A DNA stretch of 64,000 nt, from positions 31,515,983 through 31,579,982 of the forward strand of contig NC_089598.1 of NCBI RefSeq assembly GCF_019320115.1, in the 5' to 3' direction. Below are positions 48,372 to 64,000 of this stretch, one piece after another (position 1 is the stretch's first letter; the number at the start of each line of letters is the position of its first letter). Origin of the DNA: Miscanthus floridulus (lineage: Eukaryota; Streptophyta; Magnoliopsida; Poales; Poaceae). The notes beneath the pieces are model-generated. The model did not search any database and had not been told where the DNA came from. It saw nothing but the letters and a program-made list of their open reading frames with translations. The translations under genes and the position numbers were made by a program.

Positions 48372-51300
48372 TGTCGTAGAATTGACCAATTTATAAGAAT
48401 ACAAGTACAATGGCAATCCGCAAGCGGTCGCACTGTCATACTTGAACCCATATAAACCCGGTAGTCCGTCAAGTACCACGACGGGTCTCGATAAACGATT
48501 TACAACAACCAAGATCGTATAGGATTCAACATACATGCCACATGTTACATAAAGTTCACAGATACTTTTCGTCATCAGAGTATGAATAAAAGTTATTACA
48601 AACCCAGTTTGATAATTAAAGCGGAAGCAAATGAGTTCGAAGACAAAGTTTCCAACATAGTTTGATACAGTGCCAAGCCAGATCACGGTCCACAAAAGCA
48701 AAGATAGGAATTACTAAAGAAGCCTGCCCAAGGCTTACTCCTCATCCACAGCGGGATAGAAGCAACTCTTGCAATAACCATGATACACAGTGCCATCTGC
48801 AACAATGGGAAAATAAACCCTAAGTACGAGAAGGTACTCAGCGAGACTTACCCGTCATGAACCAGAAATAAAATGACTCCAAGGATCATGCAAGGCTGTA
48901 TAAGTGGACGTAACTTGACAACATTTTGCGTAAAGGCAATTTACCCGTTGTACAATTATGATTCCTTTATCAAGTTAAGTATAACTATCCATTTCTAGAT
49001 TAGCAACTATCATGTGCCAAACATGTGGTATATCATTTAGAAGCATACAATAGTAACCATAGCAGGTATTGTAATTCCATATTCATCCGAACCATCATGT
49101 TTCATAATATAGTTGCTATGATGTAGGGACTAGCCAAGTTTCTCACTATCCGGGAGAGACGGCGATTCGAATTGATTTCTACCAGCTGGGAATTTATTCC
49201 TAACACAAACCCAGATCTACCAGCCACGATAGTCTTAGGTCACCTTTGGTACAACTCCGGTACACATTTCGTGGGTCCATACTGCGCTGCACAATCTAGA
49301 ACACCAGATGCTAGGATGCTCAGGCCAAGCCTGCCCTTGGGCTCAGTCTGATCGTTCCCCGGAAGGAGCGCACAACAGAACGATTCCCGGCCTGAGTTGA
49401 ATTACTCGGCTTCGCGGTCGGAATGAGTTATCCGGCCAGCTAAGTGAGAGGCATGCGTTCAATCTTGTCAGAAGCACCAACAACTGTACGGTCCTTAATT
49501 GACACAGACGGGGATAAGTCCACACCCAAGACCTCCATGTCTTGTTGCTTCTCTATCGACTTCCCGTCCGGTCTCAATTTACTTTTACCTCATGGTTCTG
49601 ATCCATGATAGCAGATATAGCCAACCGTGCTCCGGTATCCACCTATATCTCGCAGGTGACAGGGCATCACCCGACTTCTATCGGTCTAAGCATGGCTAAG
49701 CATATATATTCGATCCTGGACCTATACCGGTTAAAGGTGTAATATTTGGACAAGGAATGTACATGCATCAAGTGGTTTCATTCAACTCTTATAACCTAAT
49801 GCATCAATCATAAATACGTAAGTAAACATTTGTAAAATTACTGGGAGACTTATAATGCTCCGGGGCTTGCCTCGCAGAAAGGAAGTAGGGCGATGGTCAG
49901 GACACTCTGGAAGCTCTTCAGGGTTCTGCTCCATGCCTTCGGGAGCAGCGGCTTGCGGATCCTCCTGCGGGTTCCCTTCCTCTGCTTCTTCGAATTCCAG
50001 CAACGTGATCTCTTCCTCCGATCCTAGATGCATGAGTATGGTATGAGTATTACGAATGCATATATGTTAACAAGTGCATCATGTTGTTTGAGTAGGTGCA
50101 TATCTCTTCTCGATTACTACTTAACTACTTCTACAATGCATCGACTATGCCACAAACAGTAGCTACTTGTTTCACTCATAACTGGAGTTCTACAAATCCA
50201 AAAATAGTGATCCAGGACTTTCTGGAAAGCTTATCAAATTCTCTACAACTTTGTTATTAACCATTTTTACAGTACACATCAGTTTCAATATGCAACTCAT
50301 CACACTCTAGAATCAGTCCGGAAACTATTTAACATGCAATATAAAGTAATAATACTCCTACTTCATGTAATCATTCAAAATTTGACAACTTAACATCTAC
50401 CAATAGTGTAGGCATACCAAATACATTTTTGATAATATAATGGTGAAGCCCAAACTATTTATTTAATTACCTTTATTATTTTATTTAGATATCTAGGTTA
50501 AATACTAAACATATATCAGACATACTTATTAAATTCTCAAAAATTTACAGTGCCTTACTAATGCTATAAAAGGACTACTATAAAAATTTCATGTCATTTT
50601 ATCAAGTAGAACATCCTATACAAAAATGACAAGGAAGCAAGGCTTAAAATAGCATAAATAGAAAACTATATTGAAAAGTGTCAAGCAACAGATTTCCTAT
50701 TTTTATTATCATCTTTATGGTACTAGTATACCCTCCAACAAATTTCATGAATTTTAGATTCATAATTAATTTATTAAAATTTATACAAGGATTCACTATT
50801 TATAAAATAAAAATCTATAACTATAGATCTACACATGCACTGGTCTTCAAATTTTTACCAGAGTTCATATATGCTAAGACTAGCTTACCACAAAAAATTC
50901 ATAATTTTTGGAGCACAGGAACTCTAGATACAAAATAAACAAATTTGAATGCATTCAAAAGCATATTTGAAATCCCTATTTAAATCTACCACAATCCTTA
51001 CTGTAAGTGCCAAGAACATATTTTTCCTAAATACTTAACTTCCTAATGAACACTACCAAATTTATTTCACAAAATTTGAAGCTACCTAGCTCAACTTATC
51101 AAATTTCCAAAGTGGCACATGAAACATGAACAAATGAACTAGCCCACTTCACTTCTGTCGCTGACAGGCGGGACCCCACTGTCAGCCGGCCCTACCCACC
51201 AGTGAGACAAAAACAGGGCACGGCGCCGCGACGGCGCGGGGGCGGTGCTAGCTCACCGGCGGTGACCCTTTTGGCGACGAAACCTGGACTACCGTGATCT

Positions 51301-52783
51301 CCTTGACCTAGTGTACGCGTGGAGCTATCTAGGTGGGCGGATGACCGACGTGAAGTACAGCGGCGACGGCCATGGCGGCTCAGCGGAGTTGGACGGTGGC
51401 GCTACGCCGGCGGAGGCCATGGAGATGCAGAAACAAGCTTGGACGTGCATCTACACACTACGACGAAGCTACCGCACCCACTATTACTGCTAGAGGTGGT
51501 CGGAGATGCCCCGGCCACGGCGAGCGCGCGCTCCGGCGAGGCGCTAGTGATGGCGGCGGCGACGGAAATGGCCAATGGGCCCTCACCTTGTCTCCAATGC
51601 GACTGCGAAGGGGTCAAGTAGGTAGGTCGAAGCACGACGCGTCTATGGTTGCAAGAAATGGCGCGACGGTTGGCTGGCGAAGGAGCTGCGCGGCGGCGAT
51701 GGCTACGGCGGAGCTGCTGGAGCTCGGCGGCTGTGCTTGCGGTGAAGAAGGAGGCGGAAATGTGATACTGGAGGTGTGGCTGAGTGCGGGCGGGTGCTGG
51801 GGACTTGAAGGCGCGTGTCTGCCTGCCTTGGCCGCGCTGGGCAGAGCGCCGGCGACGCACGGCCAGCCGCGACGTCCACGCGGCGCGCAGACTCTGCTCC
51901 TGTCGGCCACTGAAGAACGGGCGGTTCAGTTCGTCAGTCGCCCGAGCAGTGCCTGACAGCGCGTTTTGGCGACACTTTTCCAGCTAATCCGTCGCTCCAA
52001 CGTGCAAACATTCCACATAGAAATGGTAGACCTAGGTACCATATCCAAAAGTTGTTCAATGATCTCGTGCTAAAACGCAACATAAACTGAGTAAAATCAT
52101 GATCAAAGTCGGCCTGTCAGGCTGTCAGTGATCCAGGACTTAGCAAAATTTCCTAAGTCATGAGATGTTGATTTTACTAATTTTTGTGATTCAATTTCAA
52201 GCATGTTAGGAGCTGAATCAGTTAATGACACAAAAATAAAAGTTGTTCCTTATGTCAAACACTACAACATTGCTTTAGTGAACTCCTCCAAGCAAGGTCC
52301 CTAACACCTAGTTCAACTTTAGTCAAACATGTCACTTTGAAATCATGATACATATTCAAACCATGGCTAAATGACCAAACTAGCCCTAGCCTTAAATACC
52401 AAAGTTGTTCATGACGATACTCTAAGCATGTTTAAACAATTTGCAAGGTCATTTAAGCATTTCATGTAGTAGTCACTCATATAGCTATCCAGGTCAACAC
52501 ATGTAATATTACTTAAGTGCTTGATCATGAAAGGTGACCTTCATGAACAAGGTTCCTTTTGTTAACCTAAGTGTAGCTAAGGTGTTTTAGTGACCAACAT
52601 TACCCACTTGCATTCATTTGCACATGATCATATGCATATGTTCCAAGAAACACGAGATAACAAGCAATGTTTCATATGTTTCGATCAAATGTTTCAATCG
52701 TAAATGATGATTTATGAATGCTTGATGCTCATGCTCATGTTATGCAAGTCAAGTTATGCAAGGCTAACACCCGAGGTGTTACA
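48372..52783 (-). repeat. Left (3') LTR of chromovirus B
   Basis: The 4412-bp LTR reads TGTAACACCTCGGGTGTT at its start on the minus strand and ends with a TCTACGACA segment. A GC-rich block at about 51130-51960 is embedded in AT-rich sequence and carries an open frame of 194 codons on the plus strand (51372-51956) with no recognisable domain. The same frame is kept in the other LTR, as expected from LTR identity alone. Confidence 0.92.
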
Positions 52784-52803
52784 GCCCCTCCCCCTTATAA
52801 AAA
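52784..52803 (-). other. Polypurine tract of chromovirus B
   Basis: On the minus strand TTTTTATAAGGGGGAGGGGC adjoins the 3' LTR. Confidence 0.75.
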
Positions 52804-52826
52804 TCTCGTCCCAAGATTTGCAAGAC

Positions 52827-55800
52827 CTACCATTCTTGGAAAAAGGCGGGATAAACTTCTCGTAGATAATCTTCTCTTTCCCACGTAGCATCCTGTTCAC
52901 TATGATTGTTCCACACCACCTTATAAAACTTAATAATCTTACTCCTTGTTACCCTCTCCATCTCTTCTAATACTCGAATTGGCTTTTCTTCATAGGTCAA
53001 ATCCGATTGAAGCTGCACGTTGGTGGGTGCAATCGCTTCTTCCGGCACTCGAAGACATTTCTTTAGCTGAGAAACATGGAACACATCAAAGATTGCACTC
53101 ATCGCTGGTGGTAGTTGTAGCTTATACGCAACATTTCCTTTTCGTTCCAAAATTTTGTATGGCCCTACATATCTTGGTGAAAGCTTCTTTTTCATCCCAA
53201 ATCTCTTCACACCTTTCATGGGTGATACTCTCAAGTATACATAGTCACCCACTTCAAAAGTCAGTGGTCTTCTTCTCCTGTCGGCATAACTCTTCTGTCT
53301 TGATTGAGCTGTCTTCATGTGTTGTTGGATGATACGTACTTGTTCTTCGGCTTCATTGACAAAATCAATACCAAAGTATCTCCTTTCACCGGGCTCAATC
53401 CAATTCAATGGAGTTCTGCACTTTCTACCATACAAGGCTTCAAATGGAGCCATTTTGATACTCGCTTGATAACTGTTGTTATAGGAGAATTCAGCTAAAG
53501 GTAACCATTTCTCCCATGACCCTTTTGAAGATATAACACAAGCCCTAAGTAAATCTTCTAGGATTTGGTTCACTCGCTCTGTCTGTCCTGAAGTTTGCGG
53601 ATGATAAGCTAAACTTCTGATTAGCTTGGTTCCCAAAGCTTGGTGCAAGTGCTCCCAGAAACGAGCTATGAACTGTGGTCCTCTATCTGAGATTATGGTC
53701 CTGGGTACTCCATGCAATCTCATGATCTGGGATATATATATCTCAGCGTATTTCCCAACTATATACCGCATGTTCACGGGTATAAAGTGTGCTGACTTGG
53801 TGAGATGATCAACAATGACCCAGATTGAATCGTGACCTTGTGGCGTTGTTGGAAGGCCTGTAATAAAGTCCATACTGATCTCCTCCCATTTCCATCTTGG
53901 AATAGGCAGTGGCTGAAGTAATCCAGTGGTTTTCATATGGACGACTTTCACTCTACTGCAGTTATCACACCTAGCAACATAGGTTGTGATCTCTTTCTTC
54001 ATCTTAGTCCACCAAAAACGGGTTCTTAGATCTTGATACATTTTACTACTACTCGGGTGGATAGACAATTTGGACGAGTGAGCTTCTTCTAAAATTTGAT
54101 TCCTTAGCTCACGGTCTTTTAGCACCACTAGTCGGTCCTCAAACCATAATACACCTCTTTCGTCCAATCTAAAATGTTTGGTTTCTTGCTCTTGCATTTT
54201 TCTCTTAATGTGACTTATTCCTACATCTGTCTGCTGTAGCTCTATGATTTTGCCCTCAAGCGAACAACTGATTGTGATATTGTGTAGTACAGTAGGATGT
54301 AGCAAGTTGAATCCATCTTCCAATAGTGCTTCCACAGTGTTGCAATGGGACTTCCGACTAAGTGCATCGGCTACCACATTAGCTTTACCCGAATGGTAAT
54401 GCACTTCCAAATTATAGTCCTTAATCAATTCTAACCATCTTCGTTGTCTCATGTTCAGTTCTGGCTAGGTAAAGATATACTTGAGGCTTTTGTGGTCAGT
54501 ATAGATATGACATACATTGCCCAACAAGTAATGTCTCCATAACTTCAATGCATGAACAACGGCTGCTAGTTCCAAATCATGTGTAGGGTAGTTGACTTCA
54601 TGTTTTCTCAATTGCCGTGAGGCATATGCGATTACTCTCCCTTCTTGCATAAGCACACATCCCAAACCTATTCCTGATGCATCACAAAATACATCAAAAG
54701 GCTTTTCAATGTCTTATTGTGCTAGCACAGGCGCTGTAGTCAACAAAGTTCTGAGGGTGTGAAAAGCGGTTTCACATTCTGGTGTCCATTTGTACTTCTC
54801 ATCTTTCTGAAGTAGTCTGGTCATAGGCTTAGCTATCTTTGAGAAATCTAGAATAAACCGACGATAGTACCCTGCTAACCCTAGAAAACTCCGAACTTCA
54901 TGAACCGAAGTTGGGGCTTTCCAATCCATGACCTCTTGTACTTTTGATGGGTCTACTGAGATTCCATCTCTTGATAAAATGTGACCTAAGAAAGGTACTT
55001 TGCTCATCCAAAATTCACATTTGCTAAACTTGGCATATAGCTTATGCTCCCTCAGTCTGGATAGGACAATCCTCAGATGCTCTTCATGATCTGACTCATT
55101 TTCTGAATAAATCAATATGTCATCGATAAACACGACCACGAACTTATCAAGTTCGGGCATGAATACCGAGTTCATCAGGTACATGAAATAGGCTGGAGCA
55201 TTTGTTAGTCCGAAAGACATAACCAAATACTCGTATAAGCCGTACCTAGTAGAGAAAGCAGTTTTAGGTATATCCTCCGGTCGGATCTTTATCTGATGGT
55301 AACCTGACCTCAAGTCAATTTTGGAGAATACCTTTGCCTTCGCTAGCTGATCGAACAAGATGTCGATGCGGGGCAACGGATACTTGTTCTTGATGGTCAC
55401 AGCATTGAGTGGTCTGTAATCTACACACATTCTTAGTGACTTATCCTTCTTTTTCACAAACAATGCTGGACATCCCCACGGAGATGAGCTAGGTTGGATA
55501 AGACCCTTGTCCAATAGATCTTGCAATTGAATCTTAAGTTCTGCTAACTCATTGGGTGGCATTCTATAGGGCCTTCTGGATATGGGTGCGGTACCTGGCA
55601 CTAATTCGATCTTAAATTCCATGTCCCTATTCGGGGGTAGACCTAGTAATTCCTCTGGAAATACATCCAGAAACTCACAAACCACGGGAATATCACATAT
55701 GGTGGTGGCTTGGATAGCATAGGCTAAATGTTGGGGTTCGAATTCGCGGGAGAGTGGAACTAGGAAAGCATTCCCTCCCGTGGGTTCTCTCAACATAATA

Positions 55801-57240
55801 GTATGGGTGCTGGTGTCAATAAGAGCACCATGATACTTCATCCAATTCATGCCTAAGATTACACTTATCGACAACCCCGGCAATATTATCAAATCTGTGG
55901 TATACTCCCTCCCTTGTATCAAGATGAGTACATTTTTGACTATCTTTTTTGGTAGTAACAGTTCCTCCTGCTGAACTTATGTTAAAACCCCCTTTGCTTA
56001 CTTCAATTATTTCTTGATCATGTCTAGATGCAAATGCTTGACTCATAAATGAATGAGAAGCTCCCGAATCAAATAAAACAACAGCGGGATGCTTGTTGAC
56101 GAGAAACATACCAGCCGTGACAACTTCTCTGGCGGGCACTTCCTCCACAGCGGTATAATGTACTTGTCCCTGACGTGCCCTAGCATTCACCTACCTCTGA
56201 TTGTTCTGAGTTGGGTTGCCATTCCTCTTGGGGTGGGGGCACTCCTTGGACCAATGACCCAGTTGGTTGCAGTTGAAACATGGTTGATTACTTCTGAATC
56301 CTGTGGAGCTATCCTGATTACCATTCCCTTTTGGTAAGGCAATAGTGAATGCCTTACGAAATGGTTTCTATGGCCTGTTATTCTGAGCTTTCGGTGGTGG
56401 AGGCCTGAACTTGGGTGCAGGTGGACGAAATTGTGGCCTAGCTGTGATAGGCGCTTTCGACTGGAAAGATCCGGATGCACCGGCCTCATAGGCCCTCTTG
56501 TGACCTTTAGCAACTGCATGCATGTTGTTGTGGTTTTCTTGGGTCAAGGCATCACTAATAAACTCATTGTATGTGGCACATCGAGAATTTGCCATAGTCT
56601 TCATTAATTTGGTACCCAACCCTCGCTTGAAACTCTCAATCTTTTTCTCTTCAGTATCCACAAAACTTGGAGCATATCTTGACAAGTTGTTGAATGCGTG
56701 CATATATTATGTGAGTGACTTTGTTCCCTGAGTGAGCCTCATAAATTCTGCTGCTTTCATGCGCATCAGGCCCGGGGGAATATGGTGTCCCCTAAAAGCC
56801 AGCTTGAATTGATCCCAGGTCACTCTCGCATTAGCAGGTAGAGACGACAGAAAGTGCGTCCACCATAATCCTGCTGGTCCTTGCAATTGATGAGAAGCAT
56901 ATTCTGCTTTCAGGTGCTCTGTGACCCTTAGCAGACGAAATTTCTGCTCGATGGTATTTAGCCACTTATCGGCCTGCAGTGGTTCCTCAGCCACCTTGAA
57001 GATCGGCGACTTCGTGTCTAGAAACTCCTTGAATGAACTGTGCTGATTTGGCTCGGCCCCCGGTTGCTATGGGTGGCCACGAGCAGTGTTTTGCGCGATA
57101 AGGCGCAAAGCTTCTTCCATTGTCCTCTGGCTCCCCAGGAACTGGGCAAAGAACTCCTGAGCAGACGGTGGCGGTGGTGGGGGTAAGTCATCACCATTGC
57201 CATCCTGGCTGCTACTAGCTCCTGCACGGGTGCGTGTCAT
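52827..57240 (-). pseudogene. Chromovirus B gag-pol polyprotein with chromodomain, broken by scattered stops
   Basis: The frame begins at ATG 57240 (MTRTRAGASSSQ), directly after a CAG. Order: gag; CCHC knuckle CFNCNQLGHWSKEC (56280-56239); protease VVLFDSGASHSF (about 56080); RT with VDYRPLN and FIDD (about 55120); RNase H with CDASG and [12 protein letters not shown]; integrase H2C2 (about 54090-53965), then MDFITGLP, ISDRGPQF and SGQTERVN as DDE; and a chromodomain (about 53010-52830, with WNNHSEQDATWEREDY). Stops lie near 57069, at 56707-56709, 56368-56370, 56191-56193, 54714-54716 and 54465-54467. One extra A in an A6 run near 55950 shifts the frame. Everything from 54452 to 52827 is open. 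All domains and most catalytic residues remain. Confidence 0.93.
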
Positions 57241-57592
57241 CTGCGAATTTACAACAATAAGCGATTATTGGTTGAGGTCAAGAGATTGCAGAGGAATTTT
57301 GTACTCATACCAAACTGAAATTACTGGAGAAAATTCTCAAAATCACAATAAAAATAGAGGCATAATAATTCATTCTCGCAACATGACATCACCAATTTGA
57401 CCAATTATCGTGCTCATAATGCATGCAAATTTAAAGCGTGATTACCGACAAAGAACTGGAATTGCATTGACGTTCATCCAAACATGCGATTAAAATTATA
57501 TGATAGTCTGGTTACTAATGCCAACTTCAAACTACAGGTCCATTACATAAATAAAGGTGATACATTAGTCCTTCCACTAAGTGCTAAGCGAT

Positions 57593-58516
57593 CTAATCCT
57601 CATCATGATCACTATCGAGGTCAGACGCAGAATCATCTCCTTCCTCAGGTTCTACTTCTTCTTCAGGCTCCACTTCTTCTTCTTCCTCGTACCCTTCTAG
57701 ATCCATTTCTACGGCTCCAGGTGGGACATAAGGGTGGAGCTGATTGTTTAGTAGATGAACCTCTTCATGCAGATTATCGTTGTATTCTTCCGCATTGGCC
57801 AGCTGCTGTCCCAGCTCAAACTGTCGAGCTCTCAGGACATCTTCCCTGGACCAAGCTGCATTCTGCTAGTGAGTTAACCGAGTCATTTCTTCAGTGAGCC
57901 TTTCAATCTCTGCGTCGTGCTCCCTCTGAAGCTGACGTCGGTCCTCACGGGCATGACCAAGAGCACCAGACACACGTCTGAGGCTACCTTCTACTCCATC
58001 TAACACTCTCATCACTACGAACATGGCGCTCATGGCAGGGTTATCACTGTTCTGCCCTTCTGCTGCACCAATCTCTAAAGATCTTCCTCTTGCCTGCTGC
58101 CATGAGTCAGTGGAGGGATTACCTCTTGGAAAGACTCCAACCAAAGTGGCTGCCAGCTCCTGAGGAAAACGATCCATGATATCCCTCAGGATCCCAAAGG
58201 CTGCCCTACCAGCTGCTTCTTCAGCAGTCCTACCAGTTGACTTATAACACCAGCCTGTCCACTCAGAATCGTCACCACGGGGACGAACAACGGCCTCCAC
58301 AGTAACTAAGAGACCTTCTCCCAACCGCTCATTCGCCCAGAAGTAGCGGGGTTCCATTCCATCAGGATAACCTATATAGCTGAGCACTCTCCACAAGAGT
58401 GTAGGCATCCCAAACTCTACAAGGAACGTGTGACATTGATGGGTACGTGGAGCAAGTTGACGGCTAGGAGCTCTGCCTCCTGTGGACTTGCGAGCAGTCT
58501 GCTTTGTGCGTGCCAT
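57593..58516 (-). pseudogene. Chromovirus B extra ORF with a histone H3 tail mimic, globular domain, coiled coil and acidic tail
   Basis: This 307-codon frame lies between PBS and gag. From the Met at 58516 the next 13 residues, ARTKQTARKSTGG, equal the H3 tail, and RAPSRQLAPR continues the similarity to about H3 position 23. I choose this Met over one 15 bases upstream because it directly follows a CAG and would expose an H3-like N-terminus after Met removal. Residues 35-115 look like a compact alpha-beta-beta-beta-alpha domain ending GRTAEEAAGRAAFGIL, reminiscent of a double-stranded-RNA-binding fold. Residues 170-250 are heptad-rich, and the last 50 are mostly Glu and Asp. One TAG (57866-57868, codon 217) separates the coiled coil into two parts. 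The element A homologue at 24141-24710 shares the ends but not the middle. It lacks a histone fold, so it is not an H3 gene. Function is unknown. Confidence 0.85.
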
Positions 58517-59268
58517 CTGCACCATTAACATGTACCCCTTGGTGAGACAATGCCATAATGGATAAGAGTTACATAACCGAGTAAGAATCTTATAAGGGGA
58601 GGAACAATGTAATTATGTGAATGGTAATTTAACATGATGCATGCTCGTGCCGTACGTCCTTACAAACTTAGGAAAAATTTGTTTCTAACGGTAGACACGG
58701 TGGCATACATACGTTCTCTCATATATATCCTAACTAGTCAAGCTACATGTTTCGTTGTTAGTGTACCTGCATAAAATTTCATTTCAGCCCTAATCCCATA
58801 ATGAATATGCAGAATGTAATTGTAAATACTTTCATATATGTATACCCATACATATACTTCCATATCAATCTACCCGACAAGAATTTAAACCCACAATTAA
58901 ATACGTACCATATACACATGCAGAGATGCATACATAGCCATACCAAAGCTAACTATTTCCGACCGCACGCTCACATCTTGCGGTCATACACTCATCTTAC
59001 CTTGGCGTAGAGGCATTTGATCCATACATTACCACTCAAGTGAATGGCATCCATACTATAGCACGCCGTATGGATGACGAAGTAAAAACCCCCATGTTAG
59101 TACTTAAATAGCCACCTAATAGTCCTTAATTTGGGCATAAGGAAAGTGATCATTGGCACACTTTAGATTTCAAATACCTATTATATAACTATTAGTTGCT
59201 AGAGAAGGGTTTTTGGAAAACAAAAACTTTTGTTTTAAATACACTTGTGACAATTAACGTTGAATCTT
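58517..59268 (-). other. Leader of chromovirus B between PBS and extra ORF, with a candidate splice donor
   Basis: There is no coding sequence. On the minus strand CCAAG|GTAAGATGAG, with GT at 59000-58999, is a near-consensus 5' splice site. CAG at 58519-58517 immediately before the extra ORF could be its 3' splice site. Confidence 0.45.
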
Positions 59269-59280
59269 GCTCTGATGCCA
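59269..59280 (-). other. Primer-binding site of chromovirus B
   Basis: On the minus strand TGGCATCAGAGC lies two bases from the 5' LTR. It differs by one base from the initiator tRNA-Met type site TGGTATCAGAGC found in element A. Confidence 0.75.
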
Positions 59281-59282
59281 GC

Positions 59283-62200
59283 TGTCGCAGAACCGACCAA
59301 TTTATAAGAATACAAGTACAATGGCAATCCGCAAGCGGTCGCACTGTCATACTTGAACCCATATAAACCCGGTAGTCTGTCGAGTACCATGACGGGTCTC
59401 GATAAACGATTTACAACAACCAAGATCGTACAGGATTCAACATACATGCCACATGTTACATAAAGTTCACAGATACTTTTCGTCATCAGAGTACGAATAA
59501 AAGTTATTACAAACCCAGTTTGATAATTAAAGCGGAAGCAAATGAGTTCGAAGATAAAGTTTCCAACATAGTTTGATATAGTGCCAAGCCAGATCACGGT
59601 CCACAAAAGCAAAGATAGGAATTACTAAAGAAGCCTGCCCAAGGCTTACTCCTCATCCACAGCGGGATAGAAGCAACTCTTGCAATAACCATGATACACA
59701 GTGCCATCTACAACAATGGGAAAATAAACCCTGAGTACGAGAAGGTACTCAGCGAGACTTACCCATCATGAACCAGAAATAAAATGACTCCAAGGATCAT
59801 GCAAGGCTGTATAAGTGGACGTAACTTGACAACATTTTGCGTAAAGGCAATTTACCCATTGTACAATTATGATTCCTTTATCAAGTTAAGTATAACTATC
59901 CATTTCTAGATTAGCAACTATCCTGTGCCAAACATGTGGTATATCATTTAGAAGCATACAATAGTAACCATAGCAGGTATTGTAATTCCATATTCATCCG
60001 AACCATCATGTTTCATAATATAGTTGCTACGATGTTGGGACTAGCCAAGTTTCTCACTATCCGGGAGAGACGGCGATTCGAATCGATTTCTACCAGCTGG
60101 GAATTTATTCCTAACACAAACCCAGATCTACCAGCCATAATAGTCTTAGGTCACCTTTGGTACAACTCCAGTACACATTTCGCGGGTCCGTACTGCACCG
60201 CACAATCTGGAACACCAGATGCCAGGATGCTCAGGCCAAGCCTGCCCTTGGGCTCAGTTTGATCGTTCTCTAGAAGGAGCGCACAACAGAACGATTCCCG
60301 GCCTGAGTTGAATTACTCGGCTTCGCGGTCGGAACGAGTTATCTGGCCAGCTAAGTGAGAGGCATGCGTTCAATCTTGTCAGAAGCACCAACAACAGTAC
60401 GGTCCTTAATCGACACAGACGGGGAAAAGTCCACACCCAAGACCTCCATGTCTTGTTGCTTCTCTATCGACTTCCCGTCCGGTCTCAATTTACTTTTACC
60501 TCATGGTTCTGTTCCACGATAGCAGATATAGCCAACCGTGCTCCGGTATCCACCTATATCTCGTAGGTGACAGGGCATCACCCGACTTCTACCGGTCTAA
60601 GCATGGCTAAGCATATATATTCGATCCTGGACCTATACCGGTTAAAGGTGTAATATTTGGACAAGGAATGTACATGCATCAAGTGGTTTCATTCAACTCT
60701 TATAACCTAATGCATCAATCATAAATACGTAAGTAAACATTTGTAAAATTACTGGGAGACTTATAATGCTCTGGGGCTTGCCTCGCAGAAAGGAAGTAGG
60801 GCGATGGTCAGGACACTCCAGAAGCTCTTCAGTGTTCTGCTCCACGCCTTCGGGAGCAGCGGCTTGCGGATCCTCCTGCGGGTTCCCTTCCTCTGCTTCT
60901 TCGAATTCCAGCAACGTGATCTCTTCCTCCGATCCTAGATGCATGAGTATGGTATGAGTATTACGAATGCATATATGTTAACAAGTGCATCACGTTGTTT
61001 GAGTAGGTGCATATCTCTTCTCGATTACTACTTAACTACTTCTACAATGCATCGACTATGCCACAAACAGTAGCTACTTGTTTCACTCATAACTGGAGTT
61101 CTACAAATCCAAAAACAGTGATCTAGGACTTTCTGGAAAGCTTATCAAATTCTCTACAACTTTGTTATTAACCATTTTTACAGTACACATCAGTTTCAAC
61201 ATGCAACTCATCACACTCTAGAATCAGTCCGGAAACTATTTAACATGCAATATAAAGTAATAATACTCCTACTTCATGTAATCATTCAAAATTTGACAAC
61301 TTAACATCTACCAACAGTGTAGGCATACCAAATACATTTTTTATAATATAATGGTGAAGCCCAAACTATTTATTTAATTACCTTTATTATTTTATTTAGA
61401 TATCTAGGTTAAATACTAAACATATATCAGACATACTTATTAAATTCTCAAAAATTTACAGTGCCTTACTAATGCTATAAAAGGACTACTATAAATATTT
61501 CATGTCATTTTATCAAGTAGAACATCCTATACAAAAATGACAAGGAAGCAAGGCTTAAAATAGCATAAATAGAAAACTATATTGAAAAGTGTCAAGCAAT
61601 AGATTTCCTATTTTTATTATCATCTTTATGGTACTAGTATACCCTCCAACAAATTTCATGAATTTTAGATTCATAATTAATTTATTAAAATTTATACAAG
61701 GATTCACTATTTATAAAATAAAAATCTATAACTATAGATCTACACATGCACTGGTCTTCAAATTTTTACCAGAGTTCATATATGCTAAGACTAGCTTACC
61801 ACAAAAAATTCATATTTTTTGGAGCACAGGAACTCTAGATACAAAATAAACAAATTTGAATGCATTCAAAAGCACATTTGAAATCCCTATTTAAATCTAC
61901 CACAATCCTTACTGTAAGTGCCAAGAACATATTTTTCCTAAATACTTAACTTCCTAATGAACACTACCAAATTTATTTCACAAAATTTGAAGCTACCTAG
62001 CTCAACTTATCAAATTTCCAAAGTGGCACATGAAACATGAACAAATGAACTAGCCCACTTCACTTCTGTCGCTGACAGGCGGGACCCCACTGTCAGCCGG
62101 CCCTACCCACCAGTGAGACGAAAACAGGGCACGACGCCGCGACGGCGCGGGGGCGGTGCTAGCTCACCGGTGGTGACCCTTTTGGCGACGAAACCTGGAC

Positions 62201-63694
62201 TACCGTGATCTCCTTGACCTAGTGTACGCGTGGAGCTATCTAGGTGGGCGGATGACCGACGCGAAGTACGGCGGCGACGGCCATGGCGGCTCAGCGGAGT
62301 TGGACGGTGGCGCTACGCCGGCGGAGGCCATGGAGATGCAGAAACAAGCTTGGACGTGCATCTACACACTACGACGAAGCTACCGCACCCACTATTACTG
62401 CTAGAGGTGGTCGGAGATGCCCCGGCCACGGCGAGCGCGCGCTCCGGCGAGGCGCTAGTGATGGCGGCGGCGACGGAAATGGCCAATGGGCCCTCACCTT
62501 GGCTCCAATGCGACTGCGAAGGGGTCAAGTAGGTAGGTCGAAGCACGACGCGTCTATGGTTGCAAGAAATGGCGCGACGGTTGGCTGGCGAAGGAGCTGT
62601 GCGGCGGCGATGGCTACGGCGGAGCTGCTGGAGCTCGGCGGCTGTGCTTGCGGTGAAGAAGGAGGCGGAAATGTGATACTGGAGGCGTGGCTGAGTGCGG
62701 GCGGGTGCTGGGGACTTGAAGGCGCGTGTCTGCCTGCCTTGGCCGCGCTGGGCAGAGCGCCGGCGACGCGCGGCCAGCCGCGACGTCCACGCGGCGCGCA
62801 GACTCTGCTCCGGTCGGCCACTGAAGAACGGGCGGTTCAGTTCGTCAGTCGCCCGAGCAGTGCCTGACAGCGCGTTTTGGCGACACTTTTCCAGCTAATC
62901 CGTCGCTCCAACGTGCAAACATTCCACATAGAAATGGTAGACCTAGGTACCATATCCAAAAGTTGTTCAATGATCTCGTGCTAAAACGCAACATAAACTG
63001 AGTAAAATCATGATCAAAGTCGGCCTGTCAGGCTGTCAGTGATCCAGGACTTAGCAAAATTTCCTAAGTCATGAGATGTTGATTTTACTGATTTTTGTGA
63101 TTCAATTTCAAGCATGTTAGGAGCTGAATCAGTTAATGACACAAAAATAAAAGTTGTTCCTTATGTCAAACACTACAACATTGCTTTAGTGAACTCCTCC
63201 ATGCAAGGTCCCTAACACCTAGTTCAACTTTAGTCAAACATGTCACTTTGAAATCATGATACATATTCAAACCATGGCTAAATGACCAAACTAGCCCTAG
63301 CCTTAAATACCAAAGTTGTTCATGATGATACTCTAAGCATGTTTAAACAATTTGCAAGGTCATTTAAGCATTTCATGTAGTAGTCACTCATATAGCTATC
63401 CAGGTCAACACATGTAATATTACTTAAGTGCTTGATCATGAAAGGTGACCTTCATGAACAAGGTTCCTTTTGTTAACCTAAGTGTAGCTAAGGTGTTTTA
63501 GTGACCAACATTACCCACTTGCATTCATTTGCACATGATCATATGCATATGTTCCAAGAAACACGAGATAACAAGCAATGTTTCATATGTTTCGATCAAA
63601 TGTTTCAATCGTAAATGATGATTTATGAATGCTTGATGCTCATGCTCATGTTATGCAAGTCAAGTTATGCAAGGCTAACACCCGAGGTGTTACA
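59283..63694 (-). repeat. Middle LTR of chromovirus B (5' LTR of one copy, 3' LTR of the next)
   Basis: This LTR is 4412 bp, the same length as the left LTR, with scattered substitutions and no net length change in the parts compared. Both ends are canonical (TGTAACACC start and GACA end on the minus strand). It is joined on the left to a PBS and on the right to a PPT, so it serves two internal regions. Confidence 0.93.
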
Positions 63695-64000
63695 GCCCCA
63701 CCCCCTTATAAAAATCTCGTCCTGAGATTTGCAAGACCTACCATTCTTGGAAAAAGGCGGGATAAACTTCTCGTAGATAATCTTCTCTTTCCCATGTAGC
63801 ATCTTGTTCACTATGATTGTTCCACGCCACCTTATAAAACTTAATAATCTTACTCCTTGTTACCCTCTCCATCTCTTCTAATACTCGAATTGGCTTTTCT
63901 TCATAGGTCAAATCCGATTGAAGCTGCACGTTGGTGGGTGCAATCGCTTCTTCCAGCACTCGAAGACATTTCTTTAGCTGAGAAACATGGAACACATCAA
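63695..64000 (-). pseudogene. PPT and chromodomain end of a further chromovirus B internal copy (partial)
   Basis: After the middle LTR the sequence repeats 52784 onward: the purine tract, then the chromodomain-coding end (63995-63738) with WNNHSEQDATWEREDY. It differs from the first copy at several bases, for example LEEA where the other has PEEA. The open frame runs off the window edge, so its integrity cannot be judged. Confidence 0.9.

Follow-up and report, generated by a model that had tools for sequence, protein, structure and literature searches.

Why should a plant retrotransposon encode a protein that begins with the amino tail of histone H3? The question is raised by a 64,000-nucleotide stretch of the Miscanthus floridulus genome (NC_089598.1, positions 31,515,983 to 31,579,982; hereafter the window), in which a Ty3 element with long terminal repeats (LTRs) carries an additional open reading frame, ORF0, between the primer binding site (PBS) and gag, on the same strand as these. 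The ATG at 58516 on the minus strand opens this frame with MARTKQTARKSTGG as its first residues, and the codons after it read ARTKQTARKSTGGRAPSRQLAPRT. In the opening residues, MARTKQTARKSTGGRAPSRQLAPRT, positions 1–13 after the Met are identical to H3 residues 1–13, and 18 of 24 positions match H3 residues 1–24, the H3 letters being those of general knowledge. An earlier sequence-only reading of the window had reported the 13 identical residues in register with the Met, the 18 matches and the placement between PBS and gag, and all three are borne out by the sequence. A protein database search also turned up an H3-like protein, P0098, whose start is identical to the tail. There are other in-frame ATGs in the window's subfamily, at 58531 and 58525; the tail is in register with the ATG that is preceded by CAG. 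The 307-codon frame of the same reading, which turns acidic towards its end and terminates at 57593–57595, is interrupted by an in-frame TAG that had been missed, so the window copy is broken and encodes 216 residues. By reading of the sequence, the gag frame of this copy also has a TAG.

The tail is widespread. With tailed queries, 78 genomic copies of five subfamilies were fetched, and all 78 have a recognisable tail, although two have lost the start codon. When the 216-residue protein was used as the query on the window's genome, all of the best 150 of 9,465 candidates, the ones that were scored, align from residue 1, and the same holds for the best 150 of 9,015 with P0057, from a second family in the protein database. 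Because these queries include the tail, they favour intact tails. This bias was reduced in two ways. From 123 matches of the query P0036, whose own tail is less H3-like, 30 loci were obtained; the majority are decayed copies, and in most of the 30 the tail is nearer to H3 than that of the query. A query with the domain only, for which the best 150 of 7,502 candidates were scored, gave 20 further copies whose tail stretch was taken and which, by eye, are absent from the match list of the 216-residue query. The tail is found in all 20, with both K4 and K9, although the start codon is lost in one, there is a stop at position 19 in three, and the frame shifts after the tail in two. The 78 and the 20 copies rule out a chance match, as the sequence-only reading had argued, and show that the tail is not confined to a single copy. 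Among 160 listed proteins from the database, 23 are tailed by the rule of our script; one of the protein searches returned the best 120 of 706 matches, and that with P0121 returned 5 proteins. The tail is absent in eight copies of a sister group that were fetched with a tailless query. In a search of viral_contigs for relatives, none of 16 pattern matches was confirmed.

The 78 copies fall into groups A (18; the subfamily of the window copy), A2 (24), B (30), C (4) and D (2). Between A and B, codons 2–17 differ on average by 7.5 synonymous and 0.2 nonsynonymous changes, a ratio of nonsynonymous to synonymous rates (dN/dS) of 0.01; across 88 codons of the following domain, the proportion of nonsynonymous differences (pN) is 0.33 and dN/dS is 0.21. 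In sliding 16-codon windows, with no more than 18 by 10 copies compared for each pair of groups, none of 73 domain windows is as conserved as the tail in A–B, A2–B and B–C, and 6 of 73 are in A–C. The ratios for tail and domain are 0.12 vs 0.18 in A–A2 and 0.25 vs 0.29 in A–D. Two limits apply: the pairs are interdependent, and synonymous sites in the tail number only about 14. Decayed copies occur in C, D and A2. The codon comparisons indicate that the ORF0 tail is under strong purifying selection. Neutral drift across the family, which the sequence-only reading had proposed to check by dN/dS, is rejected for A–B, A2–B and B–C, and less clearly for A–C.

Which residues are kept? Residue counts were made on 22 of the 23 database tails, leaving out P0114, which has a deletion; P0090 and P0097 lie outside the limits of the script, and by eye both have K at position 9. 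K9, P16 and L20 are present in 22/22 tails, and A1, R2, T3, T6, A7, S10 and G13 are each kept in 21. Position 4 has K (16), R (5) or W (1); Q5 is replaced by L in 10; R17 is kept in 16. K14 is kept in a single tail, with R at this position in 20, while K18 and K23 are kept in none: H (16), R (5) or Q (1) is found at position 18, and R (18), C (2), H (1) or S (1) at position 23. The genomic copies have K4 and K9 in 78/78, R at position 14 in 77/78, and R (46/78) or H (30/78) at position 18. K14, K18 and K23 are the usual acetyl acceptors of H3. Thus, the methyl acceptor K9 is retained and the acetyl-acceptor lysines are lost, with the charge mostly preserved. The sequence-only reading had suggested that the tail recruits or titrates H3 methyltransferases, demethylases or readers; the constancy of K9, the change of K4 to R in 5/22 tails and the replacement of K14, K18 and K23 in nearly all of them narrow this idea.

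In the maize DNA methyltransferase ZMET2 and its relative CMT3, the BAH and chromo domains bind H3 1–10 carrying K9me2, and activation comes from H3 14–23: K18 sits in an acidic pocket, and R17, L20 and T22 are at the allosteric loop. An H3 1–17 K9me2 peptide gives no appreciable stimulation, and K18 acetylation weakens it (PMC9256654, in the part available). In the ORF0 tail, the docking part is retained, as is L20, and K18 and T22 are changed. On this basis we tentatively suggest, as a reading that may well prove wrong, that the tail is a decoy that occupies the host H3K9 and CHG methylation machinery without activating it. With the Met removed, A1 would be the free N-terminal residue, as it is in H3; K9 of the tail would be methylated by an enzyme of the SUVH4/KYP type. 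Once it carries K9me2, the tail would be bound by CMT3/ZMET2 at their BAH and chromo domains but, lacking K18 and T22, would fail to set the allosteric loop, giving a bound and poorly active enzyme. New copies would thereby escape CHG methylation for longer. We are more doubtful of the wider claim that a retrotransposon clade with at least hundreds of copies in this one genome carries an activation-dead H3 tail as a competitive inhibitor of the H3K9me2–CHG loop.

Several observations weigh against the decoy. Its main weakness is that position 18 is R in subfamilies A, that of the window, and B; an R there preserves the charge and could still be accommodated by the acidic pocket. The constancy of K9 and K4 may be partly mutational, since AAG is less prone to deamination than the CGN codons of arginine. 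Selection on the tail is not evident in every comparison: dN/dS is 0.17 for the tail vs 0.11 for the domain in A–C, and 0.29 for codons 2–22 vs 0.18 in A–A2 with degraded copies included; within A2, pairs differ in the tail by 1.97 nonsynonymous vs 0.76 synonymous changes, which we read as decay after insertion. The lineage of P0090 has a badly eroded tail. Among the 107 in-frame stops of 30 older loci (L049–L078), 89 are TAG, 14 TGA and 4 TAA, and this excess of TAG is consistent with CHG methylation of these elements at CAG. It suggests that the copies do become CHG-methylated, so that any protection would be temporary. Finally, K14R and K23R keep the charge, which leaves room for a role in nuclear import.

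A K9-methylated tail might instead be a tether, gripped by H3K9me2 readers or by the element's own putative type II chromodomain, which would bring ORF0 particles or integration complexes to heterochromatin. We regard this as possible, though doubtful. It would account equally for the conservation of the tail, and the integrase of the element has a chromodomain-like end; in type II chromodomains the aromatic cage is incomplete, and no partner has been identified for them (PMC6317226, in the portion available). However, a tether does not explain the loss of K14, K18 and K23, and the tailless sister elements are numerous too, with at least 137 scored matches. It is unlikely that the tail is only a borrowed nuclear localization signal (NLS) read by H3 importins. 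H3 1–28 is a bipartite NLS, which Kap123 reads through K14 and K23, with only a minor effect of K14R (PMC5677370, excerpt), and the R found at positions 14 and 23 in most tails would suit such a signal. The ordered stretches of the NLS are 12–17 and 21–26, whereas the strict conservation lies in 1–13, including A1, T3, K9 and S10, and an ordinary basic NLS would be far easier to evolve. We consider it quite improbable that the decoy is aimed at other enzymes of the H3 tail, such as K4 writers, LSD1-type erasers, PHD readers or the K9 demethylase IBM1, rather than at CMT3: A1, R2 and T3 are nearly always present and K4 is found in most tails, but K4 gives way to R or W and Q5 to L, whereas K9 is invariant. 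That the tail is a relic, left from the capture of an H3 5′ end and now without a role, as the broken window copy and the eroded tail of P0090 might suggest, is very hard to reconcile with the strong synonymous excess in A–B and with the persistence of the tail across relatives that are about 50% identical in protein.

Where did the tail come from? The distant tail of P0111, TGGKVPRQQLATRA, keeps K14 and T22, and together with the R14 that is common elsewhere this fits inheritance by descent after a single capture from an H3 gene, as we infer from the sequences. The tails of P0059, P0084, P0126 and P0140 have RRKS or RHKS right after position 24, like the K27 context of H3 plus one residue, and the capture may have extended to H3 residue 28. 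The tailless relatives (P0146, P0117, P0134, P0092 and loci L079–L086) start with MA or MD and a short stretch, except that L085 has lost its start, and then have a related xFLxxFG[TM]PT[LI]LWRV stretch. An unrooted tree of the ORF0 domain was made from 39 rows, of which 20 are tailed, 9 are tailless and 10 have an N-terminus of undetermined type. One branch, with support 100/99, separates 19 tailed and 7 undetermined rows from the 9 tailless rows, 3 undetermined rows and P0089. The labels change 8 times on the tree for 'tailed' and 4 times for 'tailless', because the ten undetermined rows were entered as a third group. P0089 has an A-type H3 tail on a body of the tailless type, with the junction near the conserved FGMPTLLWRVL stretch; it is apparently a recombinant, in which case the tail can move by recombination. 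The sequence-only reading had also raised a recent fusion to an H3 gene. A recent single fusion is ruled out by the spread of the tail over one side of the 100/99 branch, with P0089 as the exception.

The body of ORF0 is not a histone. No Pfam family, including the histone fold (PF00125), matches the 216 residues of the window protein at E ≤ 1, in agreement with the sequence-only reading, and the only histone-related Pfam match in ten scanned proteins is a weak one (E 0.64) of the first 30 residues of P0078 to the PAF histone-like domain. The predicted model has instead the alpha-beta-beta-beta-alpha fold of a canonical double-stranded RNA-binding domain (dsRBD). At the three lysine positions of the KKxAK motif, at the start of helix 2, K or R is found in 0/66, 5/66 and 0/64 sequences of alignment A2, where the mapping of the motif onto the ORF0 alignment was done by eye. 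These lysines are thus absent in the ORF0 family, unlike in the plant DRB7.2/DRB4 dsRBDs (PDB 8igd), with which the ORF0 domain shares 17% sequence identity. A predicted dsRBD-like fold that lacks the RNA-binding lysines looks new for ORF0. A sequence search of the PDB with the ORF0 alignment gave 71 matches at E ≤ 10, and the best 60 of the 71 are mostly coiled-coil proteins with no dsRBD among them. The idea that ORF0 is a silencing suppressor that binds double-stranded RNA (PMC11728184) is weakened because the RNA-contact lysines are missing. In the decoy proposal, the dsRBD-like domain and the helix that follows would dimerise, perhaps with host partners of the DRB type.

How might ORF0 be expressed? 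The leader of 766 nt contains 33 ATGs, and the 45 bases upstream of the ORF0 ATG are only 31–50% identical between groups. The gag ATG also follows CAG, in the window (57241–57243) and in five of seven loci scanned, a scan that covered only CAG directly before ATG and does not make the other two loci negative. The ORF0 and gag mRNAs are likely spliced, and these sites suggest alternatively spliced mRNAs. In loci L002, L004, L011, L022, L056 and L063, as in the window, both ATGs follow CAG after T-rich sequence. These six of the seven loci also have a third CAG before ATG with a pyrimidine tract, at positions 220–307, likely within the LTR.

The features of the element are collected in Table 1. 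The sequence-only reading had called it a chromodomain retrotransposon; reverse transcriptase (RVT_1) and integrase are present, and the chromodomain at the C-terminus of the integrase is a weak match to PF00385 (19.2 bits vs a cut-off of 25.1, E 0.0012). We take the PBS to be of the iMet-tRNA type. Since the LTRs differ at 68 sites, a substitution rate of 1.3e-8 per site per year would put their age at about 0.6 million years. The direct repeat, of 98.4% identity, extends beyond the LTR into pol, and the nearest further ORF0 in the genome is 10,910 bp away; therefore, positions 48372–64000 of the window probably cut a tandem array with shared LTRs and a 10.9-kb period (G000:C19, 31.57–31.61 Mb). 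Both LTRs contain a 194-codon open reading frame antisense to the element, at 51372–51956 (+) and 62283–62867 (+), which is possibly only GC-rich sequence.

Table 1. Positions of ORF0 and of the element that carries it, numbered within the window
Feature	Positions	Strand	Basis or remark
5′ LTR, 4,412 bp	59283..63694	-	sequence comparison
Primer binding site, TGGCATCAGAGC	59269..59280	-	sequence
CAG directly before the ORF0 ATG, putative, splice-acceptor-like	58517..58519	-	CAG before ATG in 74/78 copies
ORF0 start ATG, common to tailed subfamilies	58514..58516	-	sequence
H3-tail mimic, H3 residues 1–24	58442..58513	-	residues 1–13 identical: 58475–58513
dsRBD-like domain, residues 37–121, without canonical RNA-contact lysines	58154..58408	-	predicted model, alignment
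Predicted long helix (coiled coil), residues 160–215	57872..58039	-	model; coiled-coil matches of relatives
In-frame TAG, breaks window copy at codon 217	57866..57868	-	sequence
Remainder of 307-codon frame, acidic stretch at end	57596..57865	-	beyond reach of translation in window copy
gag start ATG, CAG before it	57238..57240	-	sequence
pol pieces: protease, reverse transcriptase, integrase, weak C-terminal chromodomain	52827..56190	-	Pfam matches
3′ LTR, 4,412 bp	48372..52783	-	68 mismatches vs 5′ LTR

How much of this was known? The sequence-only reading knew of no established description, and this was not supported. ORF0 of the grass elements Retrosat2, RIRE3 and RIRE8 was described by 2012 without a known function (Gao et al. 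2012, PMC3485330, in the part available), and ORF0, or 5′aORF, of maize and sorghum Tekay elements has a DRBM-like predicted fold (PMC11728184). The functions offered are hydrolase-like or modulation of RNA silencing (PMC3485330 and PMC11728184, excerpts). The window ORF0 shares with the grass ORF0/5′aORF its position 5′ of gag, the long LTRs and the lack of a Pfam domain; both elements have LTRs above 3 kb, 4,412 bp here and over 3.2 kb in Retrosat2 (PMC3485330, excerpt). The window ORF0 and that of maize and sorghum have in common a predicted DRBM-like fold and a long helix at the C-terminus, a likeness at the level of prediction. A term count found the word 'histone' 0 times in PMC3485330 and 0 times in PMC11728184, and a term search did not find it in the 2020 review of additional ORFs (PMC7264820).

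The matter stands differently for an older abstract. That of Steinbauerova et al. 2011 (Genetica 139:1543) reportedly notes that additional ORFs in chromoviruses of the Poaceae partly resemble histone H3, ascribes this to capture of a cellular gene, and is not known to give residue-level logic, a selection test or a mechanism. These are probably the same ORF family with the same H3 resemblance, so the H3 resemblance of ORF0 is probably already known. The selection, the residue logic and the mechanism appear to be new as far as the open-access literature goes, and the pattern of K9 kept with K14, K18 and K23 replaced looks new.

That plant LTR retrotransposons amplify despite silencing by H3K9me2 and by CHG methylation calls for an explanation. 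An H3 tail with K9 kept and the lysine read by CMT3 removed indicates a specific host target, and could be tested as a peptide in an existing assay. The tail would also suggest a function for the ORF0 proteins, which the descriptions up to 2012 left without one (PMC3485330, excerpt). If the decoy reading is true, ORF0 is a genetically encoded inhibitor taken from the host's own H3. There is a precedent for the target pathway, by analogy only: geminivirus TrAP inhibits KYP by binding its catalytic domain and so counters H3K9me2-linked silencing, with no copy of the H3 tail mentioned in the available part of the report (PMC4606454). With H3 itself, ORF0 shares residues 1–13 in the window copy and P16 and L20 in all counted tails; it differs in having no histone fold, in the replacement of K14, K18 and K23, and in the dsRBD-like domain after the tail. 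Viral histone mimics, such as that of influenza NS1, place a short H3-like peptide in the protein of an invader. Unlike these, the ORF0 tail lies at the true N-terminus, is exact over 13 residues, and belongs to a plant LTR retrotransposon.
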